From positions 248,001 through 312,000 of the forward strand of contig NZ_SMZJ02000003.1 in the NCBI RefSeq assembly GCF_004358095.2: a DNA stretch of 64,000 bases, given 5' to 3'. The first letter of the stretch is position 1; the number at the start of each line of letters is the position of its first letter. The notes beneath the pieces are model-generated. The model was given only the letters and a program-made list of their open reading frames with translations. It made no database searches and was not told where the DNA came from. Source of the DNA: Seonamhaeicola sediminis (GTDB lineage: Bacteria; Bacteroidota; Bacteroidia; Flavobacteriales; Flavobacteriaceae). A program made the position numbers and the translations under genes. Positions 34,852 through 54,247 of the stretch are shown piece after piece.

Positions 34852-35673
34852 TTATTGTTTTAGCAATCTTTTTGTAGTTACCGCACCTTTATCATCTGAA
34901 ATTTTTACTAAATACATTCCAGAAGCTAAGCTACTGATATCATATTTATCACTTCCTAAAACAGGGTTCACAGCAACTTTGGCTCCTAAAGCATTGTAAA
35001 CAGATACTTTAGAAATCTTAACTCCGTTGTTAGATGTTATTGAAAAAGTAGATTTTACTGGATTTGGATAAAGTGAAATGTTTTTAGATAGTTCAAAATC
35101 CTTATTACTTAAAAGTGGAACATCACTATCACTAAAAGTAAAATTATCAATGTAAGCAAAAGCATCCGTATTGTTTAAAATCCTTCCAGCTGGAGAATTC
35201 TGATATCCTATATCGTGTAAATACACAATATATTCTACAGTAGCACCAGAAGCTCCACCATCTATTTGAAAGACTAAATCCTGCCATTGATTAAAATTGG
35301 TATAACTATTAAGTGCTCTTATGTCTGTAGCCCCATTAATATCTGCATCTGATGCATCAAACCTAACAGAGACATCTGGTTGTGCCGGATAATTAACCAT
35401 CACATGCAAATATCTTGTTGTATTGGCAGGAACATTATATGCTGTAATAGGAAAAGTAATCAACTCATACCAGTTACTTGTTGTTCTCCCCAATTTACCA
35501 CAATTAGTTGAAGTATTACCTGTAGTGTTAGGATTAGAAACTACAGAAAAATCGACACCAAATTGTGTTGTTACCGTAGGGGAAATATCCTCAAAATTAT
35601 TCACAACAGTTTGACTAAAACCATAAAAAGCGCATAAAACAAAGAGTAAATTTAATAATGTAATTTTTTTCAT
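34852..35673 (-). CDS. Secreted protein with T9SS type A sorting signal and jelly-roll-like body
   Basis: 273 residues. Signal peptide MKKITLLNLLFVLCAFYGFSQ, then about 170 residues of beta-rich sequence (VVNNFEDISPTV, SNWYELITFP, TRYLHVMVNYPAQPDVSVRF, ADAFAYIDNF-like) resembling carbohydrate-binding jelly rolls. After SLYPNPVKSTFSI comes the C-terminal T9SS domain ending GMYLVKISDDKGAVTTKRLLKQ. It should be exported across the outer membrane and anchored or released. It lies beside GH16 and Asp-box proteins, so glycan binding is a reasonable guess. A terminator follows it. Confidence 0.82.
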   Translation of the reverse strand: MKKITLLNLLFVLCAFYGFSQTVVNNFEDISPTVTTQFGVDFSVVSNPNTTGNTSTNCGKLGRTTSNWYELITFPITAYNVPANTTRYLHVMVNYPAQPDVSVRFDASDADINGATDIRALNSYTNFNQWQDLVFQIDGGASGATVEYIVYLHDIGYQNSPAGRILNNTDAFAYIDNFTFSDSDVPLLSNKDFELSKNISLYPNPVKSTFSITSNNGVKISKVSVYNALGAKVAVNPVLGSDKYDISSLASGMYLVKISDDKGAVTTKRLLKQ

Positions 35674-35860
35674 AATGTCTATAATTTTTAGTTGGTAATT
35701 TATATGCTTAAAATTAGTTTTTTTTAACCTACTATTAATGGACTAAACTTATCTAAACATGTACAATTATACTTTTTAACTACCATTAAATAATAAAACA
35801 AAGCACTACAAAACAACACTATATAAAATCACTTTAACCCTTTACCCTAAAATACATATA

Positions 35861-35890
35861 GAAAACCACCCGTTTTACAAGGTGGTTTTC
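35861..35890 (-). terminator. Terminator-like hairpin after the GH16 gene
   Basis: Perfect 10-bp stem GAAAACCACC/GGTGGTTTTC with a 10-nt loop, 31 bases after the stop at 35922. The T-run is partly in the stem. It separates the GH16 transcript from the T9SS gene. Confidence 0.65.
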
Positions 35891-35921
35891 AAAACTTAAA
35901 CTATATTAAACTTAAACTAAA

Positions 35922-36794
35922 CTAATCCATGCGCCAAACTCTTATATAATCTACTTTTGCCTCTGTAAAGTCGCCAATACTTCTTGATGTAAAGTTGGCA
36001 GTTCCTCCAAAACTAGCTCCAGTAGACAACCACAAAAACTCTTCTACTTGCGGTACCCATATACCTTGGTAGCGTGTTTTAAACTCACCATCATAATAAA
36101 CTTCCAGCATATTTTCGTTCCATAACAAACCGTAAATATGGTATCCAGAATGGATACCTGGTGTATCATACTTTCTGGTATTTGCTTTGTGAGACGCCCC
36201 ATAGCCATCAATATGCACCACACTTTTCGTAAAATTATCAACCCAAGCAGACTCAAACACATCTATTTCGGCTCCATCATTTCCTGTACCATCTACATTG
36301 CCCATGTTATCACCCTGTAACCATAAGGCTGTGTGTGTACCAAACATCGTTTCAGCTATATCAATCTTAGCTTCTATATATCCATACTTAAATTCAAACA
36401 AATCATTAGAAAATACACCGCCACAGTGCAACACATCGTTTGCTACCTTCTCACTTTTAAGAATTAAATTACCATTTCTATAGGAAACATTCTCTGGTTT
36501 CCAGAACCATTGGTTGATACCAATACCTGGTCTTGCCGCCCTACTTTTGGTAGAATTATTTTTAGTCCATTTGGTTGGTTCAAAATTATCAAAGTTATCT
36601 TCAAACATCATTATCCATCCACTTGTATTTATAGAATTCAAAACAGGTTTTGCAACAGTTATAGGATTGTCTCCATCATCAAACTGATCATCATCAGCAG
36701 AGGTTTTTCCATCTCCTGAACAAGACATAAACAATAGCGTTATTAGACCAATAACAGCAAAAAAGAAGTTCTTTGTTTTTATACTAGTTTTCAT
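35922..36794 (-). CDS. GH16-family glycoside hydrolase lipoprotein
   Basis: 290 residues. Lipobox SCSG (Cys25) follows a hydrophobic signal. The catalytic motif DGAEIDVFES, an E-x-D-x-x-E arrangement, marks a GH16 enzyme of the laminarinase/agarase/porphyranase side of the family, with nucleophile and acid/base glutamates and the Asp between. Further family sequences are EDNFDNFEPTKW, FKYGYIEAKIDI and HIYGLLWNENMLEVYYDGE. A beta-1,3- or beta-1,4-linked glucan or galactan is expected; the exact polymer cannot be read by eye. The gene starts 20 bases downstream of the FN3-like lipoprotein gene. Confidence 0.9.
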   Translation of the reverse strand: MKTSIKTKNFFFAVIGLITLLFMSCSGDGKTSADDDQFDDGDNPITVAKPVLNSINTSGWIMMFEDNFDNFEPTKWTKNNSTKSRAARPGIGINQWFWKPENVSYRNGNLILKSEKVANDVLHCGGVFSNDLFEFKYGYIEAKIDIAETMFGTHTALWLQGDNMGNVDGTGNDGAEIDVFESAWVDNFTKSVVHIDGYGASHKANTRKYDTPGIHSGYHIYGLLWNENMLEVYYDGEFKTRYQGIWVPQVEEFLWLSTGASFGGTANFTSRSIGDFTEAKVDYIRVWRMD

Positions 36795-36814
36795 ATCAAT
36801 TAGTTAAGTTTTAT

Positions 36815-37528
36815 TTATAGATTAAAATACCAAATAGGTCCTGTAACCGAAGCTCCTTTATCGTCTTTCACCACTATTTTCCAGTAATAGGTGGTATCTA
36901 CAGTATCTAAATTAACTTCAAAAGTATTTGCAGAAGTGTCTTCAGAAACCAAACTTAAGGCATCTTTATCCTTTCCAAAATACACATCAAAAGTTACAGG
37001 ATCTCCATCAACATCCGAGGCTGTCCATTCCAAGTTAACTGTAGTGGTTCCTGTTTCTAAATACTGGCCCAAAAAGGGAGATTGAAGAGCAGGCGCAAAT
37101 GGTAAATGATTACTATTAGGTACTTCTTCAGTATAAAACTGAGCCGTAGGTGAATAATCACTTTCTATATTTCTGGTACTCCTAGCCTTAACCCTCCAAT
37201 AATAAGCAAAACCCTTCTCTAGCGTTATAATTTTTGACAGAGATGTTAAAACTTCATCAACAACTTTATTATTGAATTGATTATCTTTTGAAATTTCCAA
37301 TATATATATTACAGAACTCCCATCTGAGTTCGTAGAAGCCTGCCATTCAAAATTTAAAACATTGGTAGTGCACAATTGATTTTGAGAAGGAAACACCAAT
37401 GCCGGTGTAGTGGGTTTACTATTTGAAGTATCACCTCCACCTCCATCTCCAGAATCATCACCTCCGCCAGATGAACACGATGTACCTAAAAATGCAATCA
37501 AAACTAATTTATATAAGATTTTTTTCAT
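36815..37528 (-). CDS. Lipoprotein with two fibronectin-type III-like domains
   Basis: 237 residues. Lipobox TSCSS after a 17-residue hydrophobic stretch, then a Gly/Asp/Ser-rich linker (GGGDDSGDGGGG) typical of surface-exposed Bacteroidota lipoproteins. Two FN3-like beta sandwiches follow (about 40-130 and 140-237), both ending in the aromatic pattern YYWRVKA/TYYWKIVVKDD. No catalytic motif. Likely a spacer or binding lipoprotein serving the flanking GH16 and Asp-box proteins; it is 12 bases after the latter. Confidence 0.78.
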   Translation of the reverse strand: MKKILYKLVLIAFLGTSCSSGGGDDSGDGGGGDTSNSKPTTPALVFPSQNQLCTTNVLNFEWQASTNSDGSSVIYILEISKDNQFNNKVVDEVLTSLSKIITLEKGFAYYWRVKARSTRNIESDYSPTAQFYTEEVPNSNHLPFAPALQSPFLGQYLETGTTTVNLEWTASDVDGDPVTFDVYFGKDKDALSLVSEDTSANTFEVNLDTVDTTYYWKIVVKDDKGASVTGPIWYFNL

Positions 37529-37540
37529 GACTTTATTCTT

Positions 37541-40500
37541 TTATTTCTTCACAATTTTTAGGGTTTTAGGCTTTTCAGAATCCAACCTTACAAAGTAAAT
37601 TCCTGATGGATATGCTTGCATATCTACCGTTATCTTTCCACCGGCAACATTATACTGTTGTTTAGCTATTAATCCTGATGTTAAGGAATATAACTCTACA
37701 GATACCGTAGCTTTTGATATTTCTGGAATACTTAATTCAAACTGATTTATGACTGGATTTGGAAAGGCCTTCAACCCTCCAGAAGCATCCATTACTTTGG
37801 TTAATTTGCCCTCGCAAGTAGCTTTAGCTTCAATATTAATTATATCTCCGTCATTTGCTGAAATCTCGAAAGAGGTTTGACTGGTTTCAAGAACTTGTTT
37901 GTTATTAACAAAAACTTTAAAAGGCGCAGATCCTGATTCTATTTCAACAGCCACTTTACCAGTTTTTATTGAAGTAAATTTACCCGTAAGCAGTTCTGAA
38001 GCCTTAACCTCCAAATTAATACAATACTGATAAGATGTATTATTAATTCCTATACAGACATCATAAACTCCTGGTTCCAGATTAGGAATATTGAGAAGAT
38101 CATTAAAACTATATTCGATTCCTGCAATTGTAACATTATAACTGTGCCTGTATTTTGTGTTAATTTTTATTTGGCCGTTTTTTCCTTGACAGGTTTCATC
38201 TATGGTTTCAATGGTAAAATTATCTGCTGCCACAAAGATCTCTGAAAAATCTTGATCTAAGATAAAGTCTAAAATTCCGCTACCATAAGTAGCAAATCTT
38301 ACAGCATTTTCAAATTCAATAAACTGTACATCTGTATACCCTATGGCATCAGGAACATCTAATCCGTCCATTTTAAACCATCGGTCCTGCTGTACCGAAA
38401 ACACCCAAGCCCCATCAAACTCACAGGCAGCAAAAATATACTGACCGTTTGGCGAAGCATCCAACTCAGAAATACGTTCTACATTTAATCCGTCATTATG
38501 ATTGGTAAATGTTTGCCCACCATCAACAGATATCAAGAAATTATTACCCTTCCCAGCAAAATAAACCGTTGCTTCATCTATAGGACTAGTAGCAATTACC
38601 TGTCTTCGCTTTCTATGTGAATCATCTTGTTGAGGCCATGTTCCATTGTAACTTGATGATGTAAAAGAATTTCCTCCATCTGTAGAATACAACAATTGCC
38701 CAGACTTTAAACTAACATACCATCGGTTTTTGTTTACTTTAGAATAGCCAAAACTGGATATTGGACCACTAAACTGAAACGGATGTATTTCTCTAACTAC
38801 AGCACTACCGTCATAAATAATTTTTTGCAACCCTCCTTCTCCCCAAGGAATATAAACAGCATCTTCATTATCGTTTGGAGAAGGCACCATACTGGTAGCT
38901 GCCCAATTTCCGTAAAAATCAGTTCCAGTTACTGTTCTATAATTTGCACCATTTGTTGCAGAACTTCTTCCTATAGTTCCATAATAGTACCAATACCATG
39001 CTGATTCACCACCATTAGCTACCGCAACGCGTAATACATCGGTATTAGCCTCTCTTAAAGCTGGTATTGGAACACTTTTATCATAATTATTATTTCCTGA
39101 AAAACTTTGAGACCCTCTATCCTGATTTGCAGTATATACTAGATTATATTTTTCATTGGTTTCAGCATCATAACACATAATAGTTGGATTGCCTCTACTT
39201 ACACTTACCCAAGAATTCCAGTCTTCTGGAGTAGTAGAATAATAGGTTCCAAAATCATAGCCTGAGATGGTAAAAAACCCACCATCTTCTTTATCAAAAA
39301 TCTTGAAGTGCTGTAAATCCCAAACGTAAATATCGTTATTACTCAACACATGCTGATTTCTAGTCCAATTCACACCATAATCTGTAGATATCCAAAGCTC
39401 AACAAACCCTTTAAATACAATATTGGGTTGTGTTGGATGCACCTCTACAATGTTTCTACCTGTATCACTAGAGGTAACACTCTGTGTCCAAGTTGCTCCT
39501 TCATCACCCGAATAGAAAATAGTTGTATTATCATAGCTGATGTAAAAATGCGTAACACCACCTACTGTTGTTCCTTGAACAGAATCTAATTTAGCTACTG
39601 TAGTTGTTGGTTCATGAATAAGTGTGAAGTCAGCATCATTTTCACCCATTTTGTATACATATAATTTTGAATCGCTGGCACGTCTTGCAAAAAGGTAAAC
39701 GTCTCTGCTCCCATGTGGTTTTAGGATTTCAACATCAAACGCATTACTTTGAAAAGTTAATGCCGAAGTGGTATAATTTAAACCATAATCTGTAGATATA
39801 TAAACGTAGTCATACCATGCGTTTCCTTGAGATGCGTTTCTTCTAGCACCGTGCGCCACAATGCGCTTATCACCATCTTTTTTTGTAACAACCGTGGTAT
39901 AGTTTGCACTACCTTCAAAAAAAGCGCCATTGGCGTCCATCCAAGTTCTACCTTCGTCATCCGAAAATTCCATACTGCCATTACTCTTCTGGTTTAAAAG
40001 CCTAAAAGAACCATCTGGTAGATTTACACCATTAAACTTATCACCCTCAAAACTTTTGGAGTGATTTCTGAGTGACCATTTTACTGGAGCGCTCTCATCA
40101 ATTTTATAAATATGACCTGCAAAAGACACAATATACATGTCCTCATTTACTGGATCGTATAAAGAACCATCGGTTCTAAAACCTCCTTCACTGTAGCCAG
40201 GAGCAGTAGTAGATGTCATGTGCAAATATTTCTGATCCCAAGTTCCAGAAAGTGTACGGTTGGCATAGAAATATTTTTCAGGTGGTGGGATTGTCATATT
40301 CTGATGCGCCTTCTTAAAGTAAGCTTCAAAATCTTTTGAAGTATTAAATTTAAACCCTTCTTTTTCTGCATTGGCATACCAAGTATTGTAATTGGCCAGT
40401 GCATCTCCTTCTAAATTTTGAAAATTAAAAGGTTTTGGTAATGCCAGTTCATCCATAGCCATTTCATAAGCTATCTCTTCTGGAGTTTCTTCTTCATGAT

Positions 40501-40630
40501 GCTCATAATCGCCACCATAATCAGACTCCAAATATTCAGATTCTTGATGGAGAGAAGATTTGAAAATTAACGTAAATGCAACTAAAAATAGACCGATAAA
40601 AACCAGTCTTAGCGTATTTTTTTTGCTCAT
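37541..40630 (-). CDS. Large secreted Asp-box (BNR/VPS10-like) protein with T9SS signal
   Basis: 1,029 residues. An N-terminal hydrophobic segment (VFIGLFLVAFTLIF) acts as signal, followed by an acidic stretch. Residues about 130-800 form a beta-propeller with repeated Asp boxes (SDDEGRTW, STDYGLNY, STDGGNSF, SVDGGQTF), as in sialidase, GH74 and VPS10/sortilin proteins. Between about 830 and 950 are Ig-like or PKD-like strands, and the C-terminus is a type A T9SS domain (PNPVINQFELSIP to KTLKIVKK). Whether it is an enzyme or a binding protein is open; no GH74 catalytic Asp pair could be verified. Confidence 0.78.
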   Translation of the reverse strand: MSKKNTLRLVFIGLFLVAFTLIFKSSLHQESEYLESDYGGDYEHHEEETPEEIAYEMAMDELALPKPFNFQNLEGDALANYNTWYANAEKEGFKFNTSKDFEAYFKKAHQNMTIPPPEKYFYANRTLSGTWDQKYLHMTSTTAPGYSEGGFRTDGSLYDPVNEDMYIVSFAGHIYKIDESAPVKWSLRNHSKSFEGDKFNGVNLPDGSFRLLNQKSNGSMEFSDDEGRTWMDANGAFFEGSANYTTVVTKKDGDKRIVAHGARRNASQGNAWYDYVYISTDYGLNYTTSALTFQSNAFDVEILKPHGSRDVYLFARRASDSKLYVYKMGENDADFTLIHEPTTTVAKLDSVQGTTVGGVTHFYISYDNTTIFYSGDEGATWTQSVTSSDTGRNIVEVHPTQPNIVFKGFVELWISTDYGVNWTRNQHVLSNNDIYVWDLQHFKIFDKEDGGFFTISGYDFGTYYSTTPEDWNSWVSVSRGNPTIMCYDAETNEKYNLVYTANQDRGSQSFSGNNNYDKSVPIPALREANTDVLRVAVANGGESAWYWYYYGTIGRSSATNGANYRTVTGTDFYGNWAATSMVPSPNDNEDAVYIPWGEGGLQKIIYDGSAVVREIHPFQFSGPISSFGYSKVNKNRWYVSLKSGQLLYSTDGGNSFTSSSYNGTWPQQDDSHRKRRQVIATSPIDEATVYFAGKGNNFLISVDGGQTFTNHNDGLNVERISELDASPNGQYIFAACEFDGAWVFSVQQDRWFKMDGLDVPDAIGYTDVQFIEFENAVRFATYGSGILDFILDQDFSEIFVAADNFTIETIDETCQGKNGQIKINTKYRHSYNVTIAGIEYSFNDLLNIPNLEPGVYDVCIGINNTSYQYCINLEVKASELLTGKFTSIKTGKVAVEIESGSAPFKVFVNNKQVLETSQTSFEISANDGDIINIEAKATCEGKLTKVMDASGGLKAFPNPVINQFELSIPEISKATVSVELYSLTSGLIAKQQYNVAGGKITVDMQAYPSGIYFVRLDSEKPKTLKIVKK

Positions 40631-40907: not shown

Positions 40908-42155
40908 CTAAAAACCCCTATCTGGATTAAATGCTTGTATATCTAAATCTGTTTTTTTTTCTGAAATAAGATCTGACACCAACTGTCCAGTTGCAGGACC
41001 CAAACTCCAGCCCATCATGGCATGCCCTGTAGCAATAGTTAAGTTTTTATATTTTGAAGTTTTCCCAATGTAAGGTAAGCCATCAGGAGTACAAGGACGT
41101 AAGCCACATTTTACTTGTGCTTTTTCTTCTGAAGTAATATGGAGTTCATTATAATAAGAACTACTTGCTTCAGCTATAGCATTTACGCGGACAGGATTTA
41201 TATTGTGATTTATGCCTGTTAATTCCATGGTTCCAGCAAAACGTGTAAAACCATCCATAGGCGTTACTGCTACTTTGGCTTCACATAAAATAGCAGGAAT
41301 GGCAATTTTGGTATCATGTTTTACATTTATACTATAACCTTTACCAGCTTGTATGAGTAATTTTAGTCCTAATTTTTTACTGATTTTTGGGCTCCAACTT
41401 CCTGCAGCCAAAACAACCTCATCACATTTTAAGTTTTGTGTATTGGTGATTACATTGGAAATACTTTCACAGTTTATTTCAACATCTAATACCTCTTCAT
41501 TTTTTAAAATTGAAACGCCTCTACTTTTCAAAAAAACAATCATTTCATTCATAAAGTTATTAGGAGTCATATGAGCATCTGAGTGGTAATAAACCGCACC
41601 TTTGATGTTTAAATTAGCATTAGGTTCTAATTGTGAAACCTCAATTTGTGATAAATGCTCAACCTGCAATCCTTCTCTTATGCCTCGTTTACCTACTTCC
41701 CATTCTTCTTCGCCAACTTTATCTGTTTTGTAGCACATTAAAAGCCCTTTTTTCTCATAATGAAAATTAAAATCGTTAGATTGATGTAAATCTTCGTATA
41801 ATGTTCTACTTAGCAGATTGATATCCAATAGTGGCTTTATAGATTTTTCTACTTTTGAAGGTGTAGCCGATTTTTTAAACGCCCATGCCCATTTTAAAAA
41901 ATCTGAATCCAACCTTGGTTTTATATACAGTGGACTTTGAGGACTGAACATCCACTTCAATCCTTTTGAAATCATACCAGGAGAGGCTAACGAAATAAAA
42001 TGACTTGGTGTGATGTACCCTGCATTAACGTAAGAAGCACCAGAATCCATATTGGATTTATCAATAACCGTAACTTGATGCCCTGCCTTTTGAAGGTAAT
42101 AAGCGGAACACAAACCTATAATACCGCCACCTATAATAATGACATTTTTACTCAT
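40908..42155 (-). CDS. D-amino-acid dehydrogenase, probable D-hydroxyproline dehydrogenase
   Basis: A 415-residue FAD protein of the DadA/DAO family. FAD-binding VIIIGGGIIGLCSAYYLQKAGH is at 5-26, and the C-terminal ATGHAMMGWSLGPATGQLVSDLI closes the FAD site. In this cluster it should oxidise cis-4-hydroxy-D-proline to 1-pyrroline-4-hydroxy-2-carboxylate. It lies 8 bases after the epimerase, which makes that substrate. D-proline or D-alanine are alternative substrates if the context misleads. Confidence 0.88.
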   Translation of the reverse strand: MSKNVIIIGGGIIGLCSAYYLQKAGHQVTVIDKSNMDSGASYVNAGYITPSHFISLASPGMISKGLKWMFSPQSPLYIKPRLDSDFLKWAWAFKKSATPSKVEKSIKPLLDINLLSRTLYEDLHQSNDFNFHYEKKGLLMCYKTDKVGEEEWEVGKRGIREGLQVEHLSQIEVSQLEPNANLNIKGAVYYHSDAHMTPNNFMNEMIVFLKSRGVSILKNEEVLDVEINCESISNVITNTQNLKCDEVVLAAGSWSPKISKKLGLKLLIQAGKGYSINVKHDTKIAIPAILCEAKVAVTPMDGFTRFAGTMELTGINHNINPVRVNAIAEASSSYYNELHITSEEKAQVKCGLRPCTPDGLPYIGKTSKYKNLTIATGHAMMGWSLGPATGQLVSDLISEKKTDLDIQAFNPDRGF

Positions 42156-42163
42156 ACTAAAAT

Positions 42164-43174
42164 CTAAATCACTTGAAAACCATAAGCATAAGGATCGTCT
42201 TCATCATCAATAATAATAGTATTATACCCATATATTTTTGCCCAACCTTGAATACTTGGGATGATGGCAGCTACTCCATTTAAAAAAACTTCTGATTCAA
42301 TACGGCCAATAAATTTACTACCAATAAAACTCTCGTGAATAAATTCTTCTCCTAGCTTTAATTTTCCTTTGGCATGTAGTTGCGCCATTCTTGCGGATGT
42401 TCCTGTGCCACAAGGGCTTCTATCTATAGCCTTATCGCCATAAAACACAGCATTTCTTCCTGAGGAACTAGAATCTAGAGGTGTTCCCGTCCAAAGTAAA
42501 TGAGACACATTTCTTATGGTTTCATTTTCTGGGTGAATAAACCTATCCGGATATTTTTCATTGATGGCTTGTCTCAGTACTTGCGAATACTGAATAAGCT
42601 TGCTCGCAGAAAAATTTTGAATACCTGAAAAGTTACTTTGAGGATCAACAATAGCATAAAAATTTCCTCCATAAGCAACATCAAAAGTAAGTTCGCCTAA
42701 CTCAGGACAGTTTATCGTCAAACCTTCTTCTGCTAAATAACTTTTTACATTGGTTAAACGTACCCAATCTACTTTATCATTTTTGATTGAATAATCAATT
42801 TCAACCAAACCTGCAGGTGCCTCCATCCTTATTTTTCCCGGTTTTTTTGGCACAATCAAACCTTCCTCTATGGCTATTGTAATGGTACCTATTGTACCAT
42901 GGCCACACATAGGCAAACAACCTGAAGTTTCTATAAATAAAATGGCAAAATCATTTTCGGGGTCATGCGGCGGATACAAAATACTCCCACTCATCATATC
43001 ATGTCCACGAGGTTCAAACATCAAGCTTTTTCTAATCCAATCATATTCTTTTAAAAAGTGTAAGCGTTTTTCATTCATAGTGTTACCTATCAATTGTGGA
43101 CCTCCACTTTTAATTACTCTCACTGGATTTCCGCAAGTGTGCCCATCAATACAGACAAATGTATGCTTACTCAT
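42164..43174 (-). CDS. 4-hydroxyproline 2-epimerase (proline racemase family)
   Basis: Turns trans-4-hydroxy-L-proline into cis-4-hydroxy-D-proline without cofactor, by a two-base mechanism. In 336 residues both catalytic cysteines are present: Cys90 in CLPMCGHG and Cys255 in RSPCGTGTS. The Cys/Cys pair points to an epimerase or racemase; hydroxyproline dehydratases have Thr in the second place. The ALDH gene stop to this ATG is 5 bases, so translation is coupled. Proline racemase is excluded mainly by operon context. Confidence 0.92.
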   Translation of the reverse strand: MSKHTFVCIDGHTCGNPVRVIKSGGPQLIGNTMNEKRLHFLKEYDWIRKSLMFEPRGHDMMSGSILYPPHDPENDFAILFIETSGCLPMCGHGTIGTITIAIEEGLIVPKKPGKIRMEAPAGLVEIDYSIKNDKVDWVRLTNVKSYLAEEGLTINCPELGELTFDVAYGGNFYAIVDPQSNFSGIQNFSASKLIQYSQVLRQAINEKYPDRFIHPENETIRNVSHLLWTGTPLDSSSSGRNAVFYGDKAIDRSPCGTGTSARMAQLHAKGKLKLGEEFIHESFIGSKFIGRIESEVFLNGVAAIIPSIQGWAKIYGYNTIIIDDEDDPYAYGFQVI

Positions 43175-43179
43175 TTTCC

Positions 43180-44763
43180 CTAAATTGAATCTTTTGTTCT
43201 TATGCCATCAATCGTTCTAAAAATTGATAATGGATTCTCATTTTGTAATTCTTTAGGCAATAAATTATTAGGCCAACTTTGATAGCTAAAAGGACGCACC
43301 CAACGTTTTATAGAAGTAATACCCACTGCAGAAAAACGACTGTCTGTAGATGCAGGATAAGGACCACCATGCACCATAGATTCACAAACCTCAACACCTG
43401 TTGGAACTCCGTTAAAAATAATACGCCCTACTCTATTTTGTAAAGCTGCAATTATATTTGAATAATTTGTAATTTCATCATTATCAGAAATAACAGTTCC
43501 TGTTAATTGCCCTTCTAAATTGGCAATGACTTGTTCTAACTCGTTAGTATTTTCACATTGAACTATCATAGAAAAAGGACCAAAAACCTCTAGATGTAAT
43601 GTTGAATTCTCTAAGAATGTTTTTCCTTCAACAGAAACTACAGCCTGTTGTGCGTGATTATTAGCAACATCAAATTCGTAATTTGCTGTAACAGTAACAT
43701 TTTCTTGAGAAACCACTTTTTCTTTATTTGCATTGTACCCTTTTTTAATGTTTGGATGCAACATGCAAGAAGGAATAATTTCTAAAATTTCTTGTGATAA
43801 CTGATTAATAAAATTTGTTAGTCCATCACTTTTAATTCCAATAATTAATCCAGGGTTTGTACAAAACTGACCTGTTCCTAGAGTAATGGAACCTGCGTAG
43901 GTTTTTGCAATTTCTTGATGTCTATTTTCTAATGCTTCTGGTAAAATAACCACAGGATTGATACTACCCATTTCTGCAAACACAGGAATTGGTTCTTCTC
44001 TTTTCGCAGATAAATCTAGTAGTGCTCTACCTCCTTTTATGCTTCCTGTAAAACCAACTGCTTTTACTTTTGGGTTGGCAACTAATTGCTGACCAACTTC
44101 AATTCCGCTCGAATTTAAGTTTGAAAAAACACCATTTGGCATTCCTGTTTTTTCTGCTGCTCTTATAATTGCAGAAGCAACCAATTCTCCAGTTCCAGAA
44201 TGCATTGGGTGTGATTTTACGATTACAGGACAACCAGCTGCTAATGCTGCTGCTGTATCCCCACCAGCTGTGGAATATGCTAAAGGAAAATTACTTGCTC
44301 CAAACACCACAACTGGCCCTAAAGGAATATTCATTTTACGAATATCTAACCTTGGCATGGGTTCTCTATTGGGTTGTGCAGTATCTATGGTTGCTTCTAC
44401 CCAAGAACCTTCAGCTACTAAATTTGCAAAACTTCTTAATTGCCCAATAGTTCTTCCTCTTTCTCCTTTGGCTCTTCCTTCTGGCAAACCTGTTTCAAAA
44501 CAATATGTTTCCACTAACTCATCATCTAAAGCTAAAATTTCATCTGCAATTTCATTTAAAAATGCTGCTTTTTTAGCTCCAGAAACAAATCTATATTCTT
44601 GAAATGCTTTTGAAGCTAAATCTACTGCTTCTTGAATTTCTTCTGAAGATGCTTCTGTAAAAATAGTATCGTTTTCTTTATTTAATTCTGGATTGAATGT
44701 TTTGTAGGTGTTGTATCCCTTGGCTGATTTTTGATTGCCTATATAGTTTTTTCCTGTAATCAT
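43180..44763 (-). CDS. 2-oxoglutarate semialdehyde dehydrogenase (ALDH family)
   Basis: A 527-residue NAD(P)+ aldehyde dehydrogenase of the KGSADH (2,5-dioxovalerate dehydrogenase) type. The catalytic Cys is in TLGTGQFCTNPG and the general-base Glu in FAEMGSINP, which replace the usual GQxC and E-L-G-G patterns in this subgroup. It should oxidise the semialdehyde from hydroxyproline (and possibly pentose or uronate routes) to 2-oxoglutarate. A 121-base gap separates it from the deaminase gene; minus-strand TAAATTTG at 44793-44800 may be an internal -7 element. Confidence 0.92.
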   Translation of the reverse strand: MITGKNYIGNQKSAKGYNTYKTFNPELNKENDTIFTEASSEEIQEAVDLASKAFQEYRFVSGAKKAAFLNEIADEILALDDELVETYCFETGLPEGRAKGERGRTIGQLRSFANLVAEGSWVEATIDTAQPNREPMPRLDIRKMNIPLGPVVVFGASNFPLAYSTAGGDTAAALAAGCPVIVKSHPMHSGTGELVASAIIRAAEKTGMPNGVFSNLNSSGIEVGQQLVANPKVKAVGFTGSIKGGRALLDLSAKREEPIPVFAEMGSINPVVILPEALENRHQEIAKTYAGSITLGTGQFCTNPGLIIGIKSDGLTNFINQLSQEILEIIPSCMLHPNIKKGYNANKEKVVSQENVTVTANYEFDVANNHAQQAVVSVEGKTFLENSTLHLEVFGPFSMIVQCENTNELEQVIANLEGQLTGTVISDNDEITNYSNIIAALQNRVGRIIFNGVPTGVEVCESMVHGGPYPASTDSRFSAVGITSIKRWVRPFSYQSWPNNLLPKELQNENPLSIFRTIDGIRTKDSI

Positions 44764-44884
44764 CTCTACTTATTTTCTAAATGCTTTTTTTTCAAATTTA
44801 CTTTTTTGTAAATGTTTTTATAATGAGTGTTTCTGTGATAATGGTTTAAAACGAAAGTTTCTCATTTTTGATTATATGAAAAGA

Positions 44885-45841
44885 TCAACTTATTAAATCT
44901 AAAACTTCAAGTCTTTCTTTCGCCAGAATGTATCTTGCATGTACATCATCCATTTGTTGTTTTGTTAATTTCTTACCAAAGGTTCGTAAACCTCCAGCAA
45001 CATCATTATGATGAATTCCCATAGCCAACTTAAGATATTCCATAAGCAGCGGTTGAGCATCTAAATACGACAGCGAATTTAAAGCCTTGGAAATTTTGTT
45101 TGCCTCAGCCCATTCTCCTTTTAAAACATACTCCTGCATGGTAACACTAGCTTTTGGAAAGATACAACCTACCCCCGTAATGCCGCCACATGCGCCAGCA
45201 AGTCCTGCATGCACAGTAACGGTATCTACTCCTGCTAAAATTTTTAAATCCTTGTTCTCTAACATCAGCGTTTCAATAATTGAAACATCTATGGTAGATA
45301 TTTTAAGCGCAGTTACTTTAGGAAGCACAGAAAGTCTTAAAAGAAGGTCTGTTGATAGCGCATGATAACCAGCTGCATCTGGATTGTTATAAGGCATAAT
45401 GGTTACACCTACATCTTTTGCAGTTACTTCTGAAAGTGCATAGTACTCATACATTTTTGTTTCAGAAGGAACTGCCTTCGTTTTTGGTGGCATAACCATA
45501 ACTGTATCAACGCCTACTGTTGCAAGCCCTTCAATGATTTTAGTAAGCTCTTCCTTAGTTTCTGCTGAAGCTCCGCTGATTAACGGAACATTGTATTCTT
45601 TAGCAACCTCAGAAAGGGATTTAAGTAAAGAAAGCCGCTGTTTATTGCTTAAATAGCTATTCTCACCCAGAGTACCAGAACCTACAAGCCCACTCATTCT
45701 GCTTCCGCCCTTACCTTGAGCTTTTAAAATACCTGCCGCCTGTTTTTGTGTGGTATCAAAGTCAATTTCAAGAGTACCAGATTTTGACTCTTTCAACCAT
45801 GTAAACACTGCAGGCATGACACCATCCCAATTGGATTTCAT
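44885..45841 (-). CDS. DHDPS-family deaminase, probable 1-pyrroline-4-hydroxy-2-carboxylate deaminase
   Basis: A 318-residue TIM-barrel of the dihydrodipicolinate synthase/N-acetylneuraminate lyase family. The Schiff-base lysine is in VTALKISTID (about residue 180) and the tyrosine in IMPYNNPDAAG. In this operon it should deaminate and dehydrate the cyclic imine to 2-oxoglutarate semialdehyde. It is the first gene of the minus operon. A possible promoter is TTG, 18 nt, TAGTTTTA, just upstream on the minus strand. Confidence 0.88.
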   Translation of the reverse strand: MKSNWDGVMPAVFTWLKESKSGTLEIDFDTTQKQAAGILKAQGKGGSRMSGLVGSGTLGENSYLSNKQRLSLLKSLSEVAKEYNVPLISGASAETKEELTKIIEGLATVGVDTVMVMPPKTKAVPSETKMYEYYALSEVTAKDVGVTIMPYNNPDAAGYHALSTDLLLRLSVLPKVTALKISTIDVSIIETLMLENKDLKILAGVDTVTVHAGLAGACGGITGVGCIFPKASVTMQEYVLKGEWAEANKISKALNSLSYLDAQPLLMEYLKLAMGIHHNDVAGGLRTFGKKLTKQQMDDVHARYILAKERLEVLDLIS

Positions 45842-45960
45842 TTTTTTATTCTTTTTAATGAGTTATAAAACTATATAAATATTACCATCAACAATGCTAC
45901 TAAATTATTCTATTTTAATATTATATTATCCGTTTATTTAAGTTACGCTTATATTTTGAG

Positions 45961-45968
45961 TATTTTTG
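45961..45968 (+). promoter_or_regulatory. -7 element five bases before the AraC ATG
   Basis: TATTTTTG matches TAnnTTTG and ends 5 bases from the ATG at 45974, implying a leaderless mRNA. The -33 side has no exact TTG. Confidence 0.5.
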
Positions 45969-45973
45969 TATTA

Positions 45974-46816
45974 ATGAAAGTACATCCTTTTAAAATACCA
46001 AAGCCAGAAAATAGCTCATTAATTTATCAAGAAGATATTGAAGCTGTTTTTTATGATAAGTTGCATCAGCATAATGAAATTCAGATTAGTTTTATAGGAA
46101 AAGGAAACGGAACGCTATTGGTGGGTGATCATATTTCTAGTTATGTTGAAAATGATATTTTTATTATTGGCAGCAATTTGCCACACGCTTTTAAAAGTGA
46201 TAAACACGGTGTAACTGAATCTAGAATGTTGAGTTTATTTTTTACTGAATCGTCTTTTGGCGATACGTTTTTTGAATTGAGTGAATTTACAGAACTCAAC
46301 CGTTTTTTTGCGAAATCTACGCAAGGCTTGGTTATAAAAAACAATAAAAGTAAAATTATAGAATGCTTTAAAAAACTAAAAAAAGCTTCTAAATTAGAAC
46401 GATTTATTTTGCTTTTAGAAATTCTAAAACACATTGCTACTGCTAAATCTGAAACACTCTCTAGATTTATTTACGAAAAATCTTATTCTGACATAGAGGG
46501 AAACAGAATGCGTCATGTTTTTGAGTATACTATGAATAATTATCAAAAAAACATTTCATTGCAAACAATTTCTAATGAGGCCAATATGACAAAAAATGCA
46601 TTTTGTAAATATTTTAAAAAGAGAACCAATAAAACATACATTACTTTTTTAAATGAGATAAGGGTTGAGCATGCCACAAGGCTTTTAGAAAAACAATTAG
46701 ACATGCCTATTGTTGAAATAGCAGAATTATCTGGGTTTAATAACTTATCTAACTTTAACAGGCAGTACAAAAAAGTAAAAGGCCATATACCATCTTACTT
46801 TAAAAAGCGTGTTTAG
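45974..46816 (+). CDS. AraC-family transcriptional regulator of the hydroxyproline operon
   Basis: About 280 residues. An N-terminal cupin sensor (HQHNEIQISFIGKGNGTLLVGD, IIGSNLPHAFKSD) is followed by the double helix-turn-helix: ISLQTISNEANMTKNAFCKYFK and PIVEIAELSGFNNLSNFNRQYKK. ATG at 45974 is preferred to a TTG 18 bases upstream that would add six residues. It is divergent from the deaminase gene across 132 bases, the classic arrangement for sensing a substrate-derived inducer and activating the catabolic genes. Its 3' end overlaps the convergent sulfatase gene by 4 bases. Confidence 0.92.
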   Translation: MKVHPFKIPKPENSSLIYQEDIEAVFYDKLHQHNEIQISFIGKGNGTLLVGDHISSYVENDIFIIGSNLPHAFKSDKHGVTESRMLSLFFTESSFGDTFFELSEFTELNRFFAKSTQGLVIKNNKSKIIECFKKLKKASKLERFILLLEILKHIATAKSETLSRFIYEKSYSDIEGNRMRHVFEYTMNNYQKNISLQTISNEANMTKNAFCKYFKKRTNKTYITFLNEIRVEHATRLLEKQLDMPIVEIAELSGFNNLSNFNRQYKKVKGHIPSYFKKRV

Positions 46817-48213
46817 TCCTGCTTTCTATTTTTAAAAGCTAAACTCCAAATATCCTTGTATTCTGGTTCTTTATTTTCCATAAGCTGTTTGTGGATGTGA
46901 TACGTAACATCCATCCAAGGTTTGCTCTCATCCCACAAGGGTGCCATTAGTGTTGACTCCCAGTTGTTGTATTTTAACTTTAATTCTTGAAGTTTATTGT
47001 TGTAAATTAAAGACAGGTCATTTGTTTCACCCAAATCCGAACTCAAATTATAAAGCACTGAACCGTAGCCTTTAAGCTGAATAAGTTTTGAATCACCCAT
47101 TCTTACGGCAGATTCATCCAATTTTCTCCAAAATAAAGTTTCATGCGGATTGCTTTTTTTTTCACCTCTTAAATACGGCAACAAGTTTTCGCCATCTAAT
47201 TTTAATGTTTTGGGTTTATTAATTTCAGCGGCACTTAAAGACGTGGTAAAAATATCTAGTGAAGATGTCAATCCTTCAAATTTTTGATTTCCTTTAATCA
47301 TTTTAGGCCAACTGACTATAAATGGCACACGATGGCCTCCTTCAAATTTATTGCCTTTCCAGCCTTTAAGAGTTCCTGTAGAAGATTGATTGTTATGCGC
47401 GCCACCATTATCACTTAAAAAATAAATTAACGTATTTTCTCTTTTTCCTGATGCTTCTAGTACTTTTAAAAGTTTACCAATATTTTCATCTAAAGACCAC
47501 GTCATCGCTGCTAATTCTTTCCTCGGGTGGTTTTTAAACTTCTCCAAGTCTTCTGCTTTTGCATGCATGGGTGTATGCACTGCATTATAAGCTAAATACA
47601 TAAAAAAAGGTTTATCGCCACTTTCTTCAATATATGTAACGGATTGTTTTCCCAACACATCTGTCATATACCCTTCAAAAACAACACGCTCCCCATTATG
47701 TTGAAGCATCTCATCTATACTTGGATTATCCAATGGAAAATACGAACGACTTCCTGCCAAAAAACCATAGAATTCATCAAAACCTCGTTGATTTGGGTGG
47801 TCTGTTTTATCGGATCCTAAATGCCATTTTCCTATAGCATAGGTCTTGTAACCATTAGCTTTAAAAACATCGGCGATGGTTACTACATTATCACTTAAAC
47901 CAATGCCTCCAGTACCATTAGCCTCAAAACCAAAACGTTGTTGGTACTTTCCTGTGATTAATCCAGCTCGTGATGGCGCGCAAACTGTGGCGCTTACATG
48001 CGCGTCTGTAAATGTTACCCCACTTTTAGCAAGCGAATCAATATTTGGAGTTTGTAAATCCTGGCTGCCCATAAAACCAAAATCTACGTAGCCAGCATCA
48101 TCTACCAAAATTATTATGACATTTGGCGGTTCACTTTTTGAAACTTCTGTTTTTGAGTTACATGCAAAAACAGTTATTAAGGTCAAAATACATATTGAGA
48201 AAAGGCGATTCAT
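46813..48213 (-). CDS. Sulfatase lipoprotein, type I (formylglycine)
   Basis: 466 residues. Lipobox FAC (Cys18) in the signal. The motif TVCAPSRAGLITG contains Cys78 for conversion to formylglycine, preceded by the metal-binding ILVDDAGYVDFG. The metal/sulfate ligands KWHLG (about 130) and DNGGAHNN (about 275) follow. The pattern of the N-terminal third fits exo-acting sulfatases of marine Bacteroidota, but the subfamily was not assigned. It should remove sulfate esters from algal oligosaccharides in the periplasm or on the surface. It lies 19 bases after the GH2 gene in the same direction. Confidence 0.93.
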   Translation of the reverse strand: MNRLFSICILTLITVFACNSKTEVSKSEPPNVIIILVDDAGYVDFGFMGSQDLQTPNIDSLAKSGVTFTDAHVSATVCAPSRAGLITGKYQQRFGFEANGTGGIGLSDNVVTIADVFKANGYKTYAIGKWHLGSDKTDHPNQRGFDEFYGFLAGSRSYFPLDNPSIDEMLQHNGERVVFEGYMTDVLGKQSVTYIEESGDKPFFMYLAYNAVHTPMHAKAEDLEKFKNHPRKELAAMTWSLDENIGKLLKVLEASGKRENTLIYFLSDNGGAHNNQSSTGTLKGWKGNKFEGGHRVPFIVSWPKMIKGNQKFEGLTSSLDIFTTSLSAAEINKPKTLKLDGENLLPYLRGEKKSNPHETLFWRKLDESAVRMGDSKLIQLKGYGSVLYNLSSDLGETNDLSLIYNNKLQELKLKYNNWESTLMAPLWDESKPWMDVTYHIHKQLMENKEPEYKDIWSLAFKNRKQD

Positions 48214-48232
48214 TTATAATTATAATTCATGA

Positions 48233-51460
<3,228 letters not shown>

Positions 51461-54247
51461 TTAGTCGTAAATATCCTCTGTAGAAAACTTACCTTGTTTT
51501 TTATCAAGTTTAATGCCTTTTAAATCATCTATAGTGACACTTTGTGATGGTAAAAAGGCTTCACTGTCCATGTATTGCAACAGACTGTTTCGTAATTGTC
51601 TTGCTACAGGTCTCTTATCTAAATTGGTTATTAAATCGATGGATGAAAATACCAAACTACCATTGCCAACTTTAGCTTCAAACACATTCGCCAAATGATG
51701 GTTGGTTACAAAATTATCTATAAGTCTTACTATTGGTGTAACATTTAGCGAATCTGTTACTATCGTTTTTGAATTGATACATAAATCCCACCATTGCCAA
51801 TCGCTATGCGTATCCGTTGGGAAAGATTTAAATGCGGGATGTTTATCATCAACCAAAACCCCCATAGTAGCGGGTTGGTTTGGGAAATGAACCGGACTCC
51901 AAAACACAGGTACAAAGCGCCCTTCTATACCATCAAGCGTTTTAAAATCTGGATTAAGTAACACCTTACCGCCTTTGTTAAGCACTTGTTCTGCCACAGT
52001 ATAAGATGACGTTACAACAATGTTGTTTTTAGCTAAATCCGATGCCTTAGGATATACCCAGATGTTCCACGAATTTTTATATTTAGTACCTTCTAAACTG
52101 ACTTCTACTTTGAGCTTTTTAGCAGATTCAGTGTTGACATCAAAAGTTATTTCTCCTAATTTGGTGTTATTGCCAATACTTAAATTGATGTCTTGCAATT
52201 CAGAATTAGCTAGCACAATACCTGCCTCATCGCTTATACTCCAATTCAAAGTTTGATTATCTAAAGGCTTAAAGAAATTAGCTACCTCAATTAAAGCTGT
52301 AAAGGTTTCTCCACTTTCGTAAACTGCTTTTTCAAACCTTAAGAGAGGTACCAACTCGCTATTAAACTGACTAAATTCTTCTGCTGAAATAACCCCTTTA
52401 GATTCCCAAAAGGCGTTAAGTAATCCTACCAATGCCGTACCTTGACCCGGAAAATCTTGCAATTGTAATAATTGAAACCCATCAAAACTTGGCGTTTTCA
52501 TGGCACGTTCAATTTCTTCTTTATATAAAATAGATGCTAACTTTCCTGAGTTATAGGTGAAATCAGGAGCTAGGTCCAGCAATCCTTTTTTCTCCAAATC
52601 GTTTCTTACGGCGATAAAATTAAGCGGTTCTAAAACTCCCGTATATTTTTCAATTTCACTCATATCGGGGTACACCGAATACTGACCAATTTCATGGGAT
52701 ATTAACGGAATTTCAACAAACTCAGCTCCTGAGGTAAAATCAGCATCAAAATGTGGTGACTTATTATTAAAGACACCTTGACCACGAATCCATCCATTTT
52801 TGGTCCATTGCGCAATAAAAAACTCATCTTCCGGCTCAGGGCGAGTTCCTGCAGGACGTTGAAATGAAAAGGCTGTTGTTGCATATAAATGCCTGTTGTC
52901 TTTTGGTTTTAACTCTGCCACCAAACTGTTAAGTTGTTCAAAATCGCCTTCCAACTCGTTGCCCATGGCCATAAAAATGAAGGAGGGGTGATTCCCATAA
53001 TCTTTGATAATTTTATGCGCCTCTGAAGTAAGAAACTCAACTGTTTTTGGATCTTCACCAAATTTTAAACTCCAATGTGGCAGTTCTACTTGCAAGTAAA
53101 AACCAGCTTCATCGGCAGCCTGGAACGCCGTTTTTGGTGGACACCAAGAATGGAATCTTAAATGATTTAACCCATAAGCCTTGGCTTGTCCAATTAATTT
53201 TGCCCATGCTTCTTTTGTTGTTGGTGGATATCCTGTTAACGGAAAAATAACACACTCTAAATTTCCGCGTAAAAAGATACGCGTTCCGTTTAACGTAAGG
53301 TTACCATTATTATTTGCAACGAACTTATAACCGAAACGTGTGTTTACTGTTCCCGTTGAAGTGGTAACAAATACATCGTACAAATTAGGATTAAATTCAT
53401 CCCATAATTCAACACCTTCAGGTTTTTCTATTTCTAAAGTGTGTAAGTTGTTATTAGAATTAGAAACTTTTAATTTTTCACTGTAAACCGTAGAACCATC
53501 AACTGCTTTAATTACAAATTCTACTGAGTTTTCTTCTAACGTAGGTTGGTTAAATGTAACTTTTATTTTGTCTAAGCCTTGATTTGGATACACCTGAAGA
53601 TTCGTAGGATTATTTTTTGCTGAAGCTTTTAAAACCATATCTCCCAAAATACCATTCCACTTAATTTGTGTATGATTCGTATAGGCATGTGCCATATCTT
53701 GATTTACTTTATCGGGATATTTTGAACCTGCTACATTGATGTCTGGAAACTTATTGGAGTTGTCAATAACAATGGTTAACGTATGCTTTCCTGGAGTAAT
53801 TTCACTTAAATCATAATCATGCGTTCCAATTAAGCTATTAGTAGACCCTATTTTTTTACCATCTACATACACTGTAGATTCCCAAAGCACACGTTCTAAA
53901 CTTAGACTAATTGCATCTTCTTTCCAATGACTTGGAATTTCAATGTCCTTTTGATACCAAGCTTTTCCAATGTATTGATGCTTCCTTGCCAAATTAGACA
54001 TCACATAGTTGTTGATGGCGGGTTCTAAAGTATTTGGAGCTCCGATACCCGCATCGTCCAAAGTACCTGGCAAACTAATTGAAGTGCCTTCAATTTTTGA
54101 AGATGCCCAATTTTCGGTTTCGCCAACATTAGTAGAATCCAGCTTAACCTGCCAGTCTCCAGACAAATCGATTTGCTCTACTTTTGGTGATGTACATGCA
54201 CTTAAAAACAGTACAATCATTATAATTGTGGTGTGAAATAATCTCAT
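51461..54247 (-). CDS. GH2-family glycoside hydrolase lipoprotein, divergent type
   Basis: 928 residues. Lipobox SAC (Cys18). N-terminal sugar-binding domain, an Ig-like linker, then a TIM barrel with acid/base Glu431 in MGNELEG and likely nucleophile Glu519 in ISHEIGQYS, neither in a LacZ context. The C-terminal 350 residues form a separate beta-rich domain (WWDLCINSK, VFEAKVGNGSLVFSS) shared with the truncated gene at the right edge. The substrate could be a uronic acid or galactose link. It is followed with 3 bases by the LacZ-type gene, so the two are co-translated. Confidence 0.88.
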   Translation of the reverse strand: MRLFHTTIIMIVLFLSACTSPKVEQIDLSGDWQVKLDSTNVGETENWASSKIEGTSISLPGTLDDAGIGAPNTLEPAINNYVMSNLARKHQYIGKAWYQKDIEIPSHWKEDAISLSLERVLWESTVYVDGKKIGSTNSLIGTHDYDLSEITPGKHTLTIVIDNSNKFPDINVAGSKYPDKVNQDMAHAYTNHTQIKWNGILGDMVLKASAKNNPTNLQVYPNQGLDKIKVTFNQPTLEENSVEFVIKAVDGSTVYSEKLKVSNSNNNLHTLEIEKPEGVELWDEFNPNLYDVFVTTSTGTVNTRFGYKFVANNNGNLTLNGTRIFLRGNLECVIFPLTGYPPTTKEAWAKLIGQAKAYGLNHLRFHSWCPPKTAFQAADEAGFYLQVELPHWSLKFGEDPKTVEFLTSEAHKIIKDYGNHPSFIFMAMGNELEGDFEQLNSLVAELKPKDNRHLYATTAFSFQRPAGTRPEPEDEFFIAQWTKNGWIRGQGVFNNKSPHFDADFTSGAEFVEIPLISHEIGQYSVYPDMSEIEKYTGVLEPLNFIAVRNDLEKKGLLDLAPDFTYNSGKLASILYKEEIERAMKTPSFDGFQLLQLQDFPGQGTALVGLLNAFWESKGVISAEEFSQFNSELVPLLRFEKAVYESGETFTALIEVANFFKPLDNQTLNWSISDEAGIVLANSELQDINLSIGNNTKLGEITFDVNTESAKKLKVEVSLEGTKYKNSWNIWVYPKASDLAKNNIVVTSSYTVAEQVLNKGGKVLLNPDFKTLDGIEGRFVPVFWSPVHFPNQPATMGVLVDDKHPAFKSFPTDTHSDWQWWDLCINSKTIVTDSLNVTPIVRLIDNFVTNHHLANVFEAKVGNGSLVFSSIDLITNLDKRPVARQLRNSLLQYMDSEAFLPSQSVTIDDLKGIKLDKKQGKFSTEDIYD

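Follow-up and report, generated by a model that had tools for sequence, protein, structure and literature searches.

Several described systems resemble parts of the locus reported here, a set of hydroxyproline catabolism genes lying inside a polysaccharide utilization locus (PUL) of Seonamhaeicola sediminis, in a 64,000-nucleotide stretch of contig NZ_SMZJ02000003.1 (positions 248,001 to 312,000 of the forward strand; this whole stretch is hereafter the window). The first is the bacterial trans-4-hydroxy-L-proline epimerase pathway, whose four enzyme superfamilies are given, in the accessible part of the source, as 4HypE, a DAAO-type oxidase, a DHDPS-type deaminase and a KGSA dehydrogenase (PMC4113996). 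The window's set shares these superfamilies and the clustering of their genes, and differs from the pathway as outlined there in its AraC regulator, in the lack of a transporter, in the use of one of two mutually exclusive deaminase forms and in its location in a PUL. A collagen utilization cluster of Colwellia also places the hydroxyproline route beside genes for breaking down the source polymer; according to the part of that source consulted, its partners are an M9 collagenase, peptidases and transporters, whereas in the window the partner is a sulfated-glycan PUL and the set holds no peptidase (PMC7883544). The ecological idea of algal hydroxyproline-rich glycoproteins as a predicted food is shared with Latescibacteria, for which glycan-cleaving enzymes of glycoside hydrolase (GH) families GH127, GH30 and others are named but, in the sections at hand, no hydroxyproline operon in a PUL (PMC4454575). 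The PULs of Bacteroides plebeius for sulfated arabinogalactan-proteins likewise combine sulfatases and GH2 enzymes against the glycan of a sulfated glycoprotein, but with S1_8 and S1_14 sulfatases and a GH145 enzyme, and hydroxyproline is not mentioned in the main text (PMC8406133). Judging by titles and the openings of abstracts, no description of a hydroxyproline operon within a PUL was recognised among the matches listed from the open-access literature. Carrageenan-type sulfated galactan systems of marine flavobacteria resemble this PUL in their GH2 and GH16 enzymes. One sulfatase of the window (46813-48213) is near an exo-4S-kappa-carrageenan sulfatase by structure match, and the PUL differs from those systems in a GH16 enzyme distant from carrageenase and in two GH30 genes.

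We consider it likely that the feature is a complete and self-contained hydroxyproline operon of the kind common in flavobacteria, lodged in a PUL that would act on a sulfated glycan, probably one with galactose. The hydroxyproline route itself is ordinary in the Flavobacteriaceae; what draws interest is that it is nested in the PUL and that the pairing recurs.

The hydroxyproline operon and its likely control region

The set is composed of four genes on the minus strand (40908-45841, open reading frame coordinates) and a divergent AraC gene (45956-46816). All five genes lie where a preliminary description, made from the sequence of this DNA, had placed them. In the direction of transcription the operon runs from the DHDPS-family gene through the aldehyde dehydrogenase and the epimerase to the flavin adenine dinucleotide (FAD) enzyme.

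40908-42155, minus strand: FAD-dependent D-amino-acid dehydrogenase/oxidase of the DAO family, predicted cis-4-hydroxy-D-proline dehydrogenase (substrate taken from context)
42164-43174, minus strand: 4-hydroxyproline 2-epimerase (NF010578, 579.6 bits, cut-off 376; Pfam Pro_racemase)
43180-44763, minus strand: aldehyde dehydrogenase, predicted 2-oxoglutarate semialdehyde dehydrogenase, form of 527 amino acids (Pfam Aldedh; substrate taken from context)
44885-45841, minus strand: DHDPS-family protein, predicted deaminase, rarer form (DHDPS, PF00701, 78 bits; Tyr and Lys motifs kept)
45861-45931, no strand: conserved intergenic block of 71 bp, likely control region (alignment of five genomes)
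45956-46816, plus strand: divergent AraC-family regulator (Pfam HTH_18)

The profile score of the epimerase, together with both of its catalytic Cys motifs (MCGHG at residue 89 and SPCGTG at residue 253), assigns it to the pyridoxal phosphate-independent type of the proline racemase superfamily, which has two catalytic Cys. Two trans-3-hydroxyproline dehydratase models gave 265 and 205 bits on the same protein, under their cut-offs of 540 and 550. The FAD enzyme belongs to the D-amino-acid oxidase superfamily (PF01266, 212 bits, Pfam); its best NCBIfam match is D-amino acid dehydrogenase, at 269 bits and short of the cut-off of 383. The aldehyde dehydrogenase keeps its Cys and Glu motifs and matches the Aldedh superfamily, with 3v4c (448 bits) and 1eyy (423 bits) as the closest solved structures, and the NCBIfam models specific for 2-oxoglutarate semialdehyde dehydrogenase reach at best 122 bits against a cut-off of 750.

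Gene content, family membership and motifs are direct observations. The epimerase route is assigned because the four enzyme superfamilies are those named in the accessible part of PMC4113996 and because the motifs are kept; at this level of evidence, the reading of the four genes as a complete epimerase route from trans-4-hydroxy-L-proline to 2-oxoglutarate is supported, and the preliminary description, which had proposed the full route, is borne out by family membership and motifs. In this route the epimerase would convert trans-4-hydroxy-L-proline to cis-4-hydroxy-D-proline, which the FAD enzyme would oxidize to pyrroline-4-hydroxy-2-carboxylate. The DHDPS-family enzyme would then dehydrate and deaminate this compound to 2-oxoglutarate semialdehyde, and the aldehyde dehydrogenase would yield 2-oxoglutarate for the tricarboxylic acid cycle. 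Hydroxyproline would probably enter the cell as peptides or as the free amino acid, via systems encoded elsewhere.

The AraC gene and the operon diverge from a gap of 114 bp, which contains the 71-bp block. This block is strongly conserved in the five genomes aligned despite the division of their AraC proteins into two groups, 58-61% identical. When the window and the 36 kb downstream of it (about 100 kb) were scanned with the block, one strong match was found, at the operon itself (core 56.9 bits, next 10.2), and short pieces of the block gave extra matches only near the level of shuffled sequence in the same DNA; there is therefore no sequence sign of PUL genes sharing the block. At its 3' end the AraC gene overlaps the sulfatase gene 46813-48213 by 4 bp, tail to tail, with an identical overlap in Hyunsoonleella flava. 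Because of the divergent AraC gene, this overlap and the single match of the block, the operon is predicted to be controlled separately, and it is most likely a transcription unit distinct from the PUL. The AraC protein would most likely sense hydroxyproline or an intermediate of the pathway and switch the operon from the 71-bp block. Scans for sigma-70 promoters and terminators gave results at chance level.

The surrounding PUL

The preliminary description had reported sulfatases and GH2 enzymes next to the set, and they are there: an S1 sulfatase (46813-48213), two GH2 enzymes (48233-54247) and sulfatases at 54282-56183 and 58332-59843. It had regarded the two systems as adjacent. The adjacency stands, but the set is in fact nested, as the PUL continues at 34852-40630 and past the window end, which that description had missed.

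34852-35673, minus strand: protein with a type IX secretion system (T9SS) signal (Pfam Por_Secre_tail), probable part of the PUL
35922-36794, minus strand: GH16 enzyme, part of the PUL (Pfam Glyco_hydro_16; near GH2b in relatives)
36815-37528, minus strand: fn3-like protein, part of the PUL (profile match; loci of relatives)
37541-40630, minus strand: BNR/sortilin-repeat protein with T9SS signal, part of the PUL beyond the operon (near GH2b in Hyunsoonleella pacifica L110 and others)
46813-48213, minus strand: S1 sulfatase of the PUL (Pfam Sulfatase; closest solved structure 6prm, an exo-4S-kappa-carrageenan S1 sulfatase, 350 bits)
48233-51457, minus strand: GH2 beta-galactosidase, LacZ type (NF052611, 1059 bits, cut-off 999)
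51461-54247, minus strand: GH2b, the GH2 enzyme serving as PUL anchor (NF049890, 796 bits, below the cut-off of 1500)
54282-56183, minus strand: S1 sulfatase (Pfam Sulfatase)
57045-58328, minus strand: PUL protein of 427 amino acids (unassigned by Pfam and NCBIfam at E 0.001)
58332-59843, minus strand: S1 sulfatase (closest solved structure 9bas, S1_15A, 620 bits)
59856-63158, minus strand: DUF5107 and TPR protein of the PUL (Pfam; kept beside GH2b in relatives)
63192-64000, minus strand: GH2c, a second GH2 of the GH2b type, which passes the window end (946 amino acids, the frame continuing in L061 on the same contig)

Beyond the window end (L061), GH2c is followed by a GDSL protein, a sugar porter, a sulfatase, two GH30 enzymes, SusD and SusC. 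This SusC/SusD pair (TIGR04056, 801 bits, and SusD_RagB), with the clustered GH2, GH16 and GH30 enzymes and four S1 sulfatases, identifies the region as a PUL. In the four sulfatases checked, the formylglycine maturation motif is CxPSR in three and CAASR in that at 54282-56183.

In Hyunsoonleella pacifica (L110), which lacks the set at this place, GH2b stands with two 480-residue proteins and the BNR, fn3 and GH16 genes; the last three also occur near GH2b, in other orders, in Flavicella sediminum (L122), two Algibacter loci and two Polaribacter loci. Because the genes flanking the operon thus lie near GH2b in relatives without the set at that place, the operon is nested inside one PUL.

The substrate of the PUL is predicted from its enzymes to be a sulfated, probably galactose-containing glycan, and a sulfated galactan is a fair guess. 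Known laminarinases and a carrageenase are only distant matches of the GH16 enzyme. The GH30 genes, which had suggested a reading as an arabinogalactan-protein PUL, were dropped as support for it: the closest solved structure, 3clw, lies in GH30_4 and not GH30_5, in a comparison made with one of the two GH30 proteins and including no GH30_5 sequence. The consulted part of PMC13431644 describes 3clw as an uncharacterized GH30_4 protein and gives GH30_5 as the endo-beta-1,6-galactanase subfamily.

A second protein without Pfam or NCBIfam match is encoded at L061:11609-13033, and its relatives in Hyunsoonleella keep NEW and SEW motifs; these resemble, we presume, those of a clan-A glycosidase, the predicted model being too poor for a check. 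Predicted structures have low confidence, with a mean predicted local distance difference test score of 43 for this PUL protein without Pfam match and of 29 for the BNR protein. The DUF5107 and TPR protein occurs near GH2b and the sugar porter both in Flavobacteriaceae and in other Bacteroidota, as well as in an Akkermansia locus.

Recurrence of the pairing in relatives

A scan of genome contigs with GH2b gave 79 loci, with up to 10 kb of flanking sequence on either side, in some cases shortened by contig ends. Recurrence was observed: with the window included, the hydroxyproline set borders or sits in this PUL in seven genomes and four layouts. The nested layout is found in the window, Seonamhaeicola aphaedonensis (L111), H. 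flava (L112) and H. ulvae (L158); L111 and L112 keep the window's arrangement, and in L158 two 480-residue proteins replace the LacZ-type GH2 and the sulfatase. The set is appended to the PUL in the uncultured Flavobacteriaceae 2-963 (L134), where deaminase, dehydrogenase, epimerase and FAD enzyme (Pfam) begin 41 bp after GH2b on the same strand. Its deaminase is the other form (37% identity) and its epimerase falls in a distant clade (support 0.98), and the pairing in L134 therefore arose separately. In Polaribacter sp. BM10 the epimerase is located upstream, about 4.5 kb from the PUL's SusC (73% identity), on the same strand and with a deaminase of the window's type. Finally, Algibacter pectinivorans has the epimerase at the downstream end, 14.5 kb past GH2b on the same contig and strand as the PUL. 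This distance, read to 4.5 kb before the epimerase, is mostly taken up by PUL genes for LacZ, a sulfatase, and fn3 and BNR proteins, and no deaminase of the window's type was found in that genome.

Four layouts compare with about 0.5 expected (P about 0.0015), by a rough estimate framed after seeing the data that assumes random placement and independence, while PULs and metabolic islands may both lie in the same regions prone to insertion. It gives each genome a single set and a single PUL of 40 kb, with a 10-kb margin, and uses 33 cases, namely the 36 genomes with both minus the three sharing the window's layout. In the other genomes placed, PUL and epimerase are separated by 444 kb on one contig in H. 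pacifica, by 127 kb in Wenyingzhuangia gilva and by 52 kb in the Polaribacter locus L127, and are on different contigs in five genomes. The remaining genomes gave no further pair within 10 kb of a known PUL, positions being compared by eye and contig names not always matchable. A family sample was also searched (199 genomes, the window's own included; epimerase threshold E 1e-60). Besides the window's genome, none of the sample has epimerase and GH2b within 100 kb on one contig, and many carry the epimerase without this GH2. The co-occurrence in other genomes that the preliminary description had proposed as a check was seen, the pairing being present in seven genomes with the window's own counted, but most PUL-bearing genomes do not show the set beside the PUL.

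Co-presence in the same genome is weakly raised. A search covered the genomes behind 49 of the 79 loci, chosen with GH2b identity of at least 53% but not all such loci; the epimerase is present in 35 and missing from 14. The 35/49 stand against 90/179 family genomes without GH2b (P about 0.01, a figure that mixes unlike samples and ignores kinship); within the family the epimerase occurs in 15/20 GH2b-bearing genomes and in the same 90/179 others (P about 0.057).

These results bear on a proposal that would add to the nested operon rather than oppose it: PUL and operon may be one functional unit, in which the PUL would remove and consume the sulfated glycan and the operon would consume the hydroxyproline carrying it. 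Joint use of a sulfated, hydroxyproline-bearing glycoprotein was also the cooperation that the preliminary description had suggested. In its favour are the location of the set inside the PUL in four genomes and the three further layouts, as well as the raised co-presence and a locus with four sulfatase genes leading into a set with an S9 peptidase (L208, below). On the other side, independent occurrence of the two clusters, which that description had named as telling against cooperation, is largely what was found: only 4/79 loci anchored on GH2b hold the epimerase, 14/49 genomes have none, and many genomes have the epimerase without GH2b. The operon also has its own AraC gene and a control block that no other site in the scanned 100 kb shares, the window's set contains neither transporter nor peptidase, PUL genes are not generally enriched near hydroxyproline sets (below), and the PUL showed no recognisable enzyme specific to glycans linked to hydroxyproline, the single GH30 compared being nearest to 3clw of GH30_4 as classed in the consulted part of its source. 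We lean slightly against the single functional unit, and hold the joint use of such a glycoprotein to be possible to the same degree. The broader idea of a two-part glycoprotein utilization locus, with a sulfated-glycan PUL repeatedly recruiting the hydroxyproline operon so that glycan and attached hydroxyproline are both eaten, is rather doubtful.

If the coupling is true, the source of hydroxyproline for marine flavobacteria becomes testable, with sulfated algal cell-wall glycoproteins as a candidate besides animal collagen; PULs would expand from a glycan to its carrier protein, and sulfated, hydroxyproline-linked algal glycoprotein would be a distinct food of these bacteria. If it is false, the locus would still usefully illustrate how a mosaic set of metabolic genes can settle within and near PULs.

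The set is indeed mosaic. The deaminase is 90-95% identical among the five genomes (92% between the window and its congener S. aphaedonensis); the window's AraC protein is 91% identical to that of H. flava and 59% to that of the congener, and its aldehyde dehydrogenase is 64-66% identical to the copies of the other four genomes. The history is likely one of exchange between genera with gene replacement. These values also suit an explanation by chance, in which a mobile set of metabolic genes came to lie in a variable, PUL-prone region and was retained by descent or by exchange between Seonamhaeicola and Hyunsoonleella. Hyunsoonleella species also differ from one another in the PUL at this spot, and in H. 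pacifica the PUL lacks the set there, with the epimerase gene far off on the same contig. Four layouts are more than this explanation predicts, no mobile-element gene is found among the five genes of the set (NCBIfam, Pfam), and no long repeat flanks it; nor does any deviation in the G+C content of the set stand out from its surroundings. We regard chance co-location as falling just short of an even prospect.

For the nested, self-contained operon, several observations weigh against the reading given above. The FAD enzyme, the deaminase and the dehydrogenase all stay below any specific curated cut-off (NCBIfam), and no transporter or peptidase, the neighbours that the preliminary description had proposed to look for, lies within the window's set. 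A search of the own genome with the family's DUF885 peptidase gave no match, in a search without positive control, and one with an S9 peptidase gave distant matches only (25-26% identity). In Flavobacteriaceae 2-963 the absence of any regulator between GH2b and the set speaks against strict separation there.

Hydroxyproline sets across the family

The preliminary description had called hydroxyproline rare in bacteria. This does not fit its catabolism in Flavobacteriaceae, as the epimerase is present in 105 of the 199 family genomes. The 20-kb loci around the epimerase were compared for 80 of the 104 other carriers (one shortened by a contig end), with a control of 20 random windows drawn from 20 of the same carriers. 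By BLAST, the aldehyde dehydrogenase was found in 76 loci and the FAD enzyme in 74, both against 0 random windows; one of two DHDPS forms was found in 79/80 (0/20 in the control) and an AraC gene in 63/80 (1/20). The set recurs as a unit in these loci, and the gene row of the window is therefore not due to chance. The two deaminase forms share about 32-37% identity and substitute for one another: 68/80 loci have one form, 11/80 the other, none both and one neither. The window carries the form of the 11.

Peptidase genes are frequent neighbours of these sets. DUF885 was found in 37 loci (P 0.00004), M24 in 16 (P 0.04) and S9 in 15 (P 0.04), each against 0 random windows, whereas sulfatases (6/80 against 1/20), SusC (5/80 against 2/20) and GH2 enzymes (5/80 against 1/20) are not enriched. 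A general association of hydroxyproline sets with PULs was rejected on these counts. In four of the six sulfatase loci the sole matches are only 23-26% identical to the window's sulfatases; L208 and L091 are clear. Given the peptidase-rich neighbourhoods and the lack of PUL enrichment, hydroxyproline often seems to be derived from peptides, and adjacency to a PUL is not the rule.

These peptidases are also what would be expected if collagen or gelatin of marine animals were the main source of hydroxyproline and the neighbouring PUL irrelevant, a source that in Colwellia is reflected by the joining of an M9 collagenase with the hydroxyproline route, in the part of that report consulted (PMC7883544). 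The window's set has no such peptidase. No M9 collagenase was found among the genes scanned around it (Pfam and NCBIfam), and when the own genome was searched for an M9 collagenase, neither the search nor its positive control gave a match. For this locus we consider collagen an unlikely main source.

Three loci of the family sample combine the set with other genes in further ways. At L208:567-14033, four sulfatase genes (confirmed by Pfam) run into deaminase, dehydrogenase, epimerase, S9 peptidase and FAD enzyme, on one strand and with gaps of -4 to 98 bp; this row is possibly an operon for a sulfated glycoprotein. At L092:1030-18967 and L200:1288-14025 the set occurs with an S9 peptidase and a GH127 gene (the GH127 of L092 by Pfam, the rest by BLAST). 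L092 adds SusC/SusD-like genes and an amino-acid permease (the latter by Pfam), and L200 adds an M24 peptidase. GH127 enzymes include beta-L-arabinofuranosidases acting on hydroxyproline-linked arabinose, according to the part of PMC4454575 available. Because peptidases are present, L208, L092 and L200 may be more promising than the window as glycoprotein loci.

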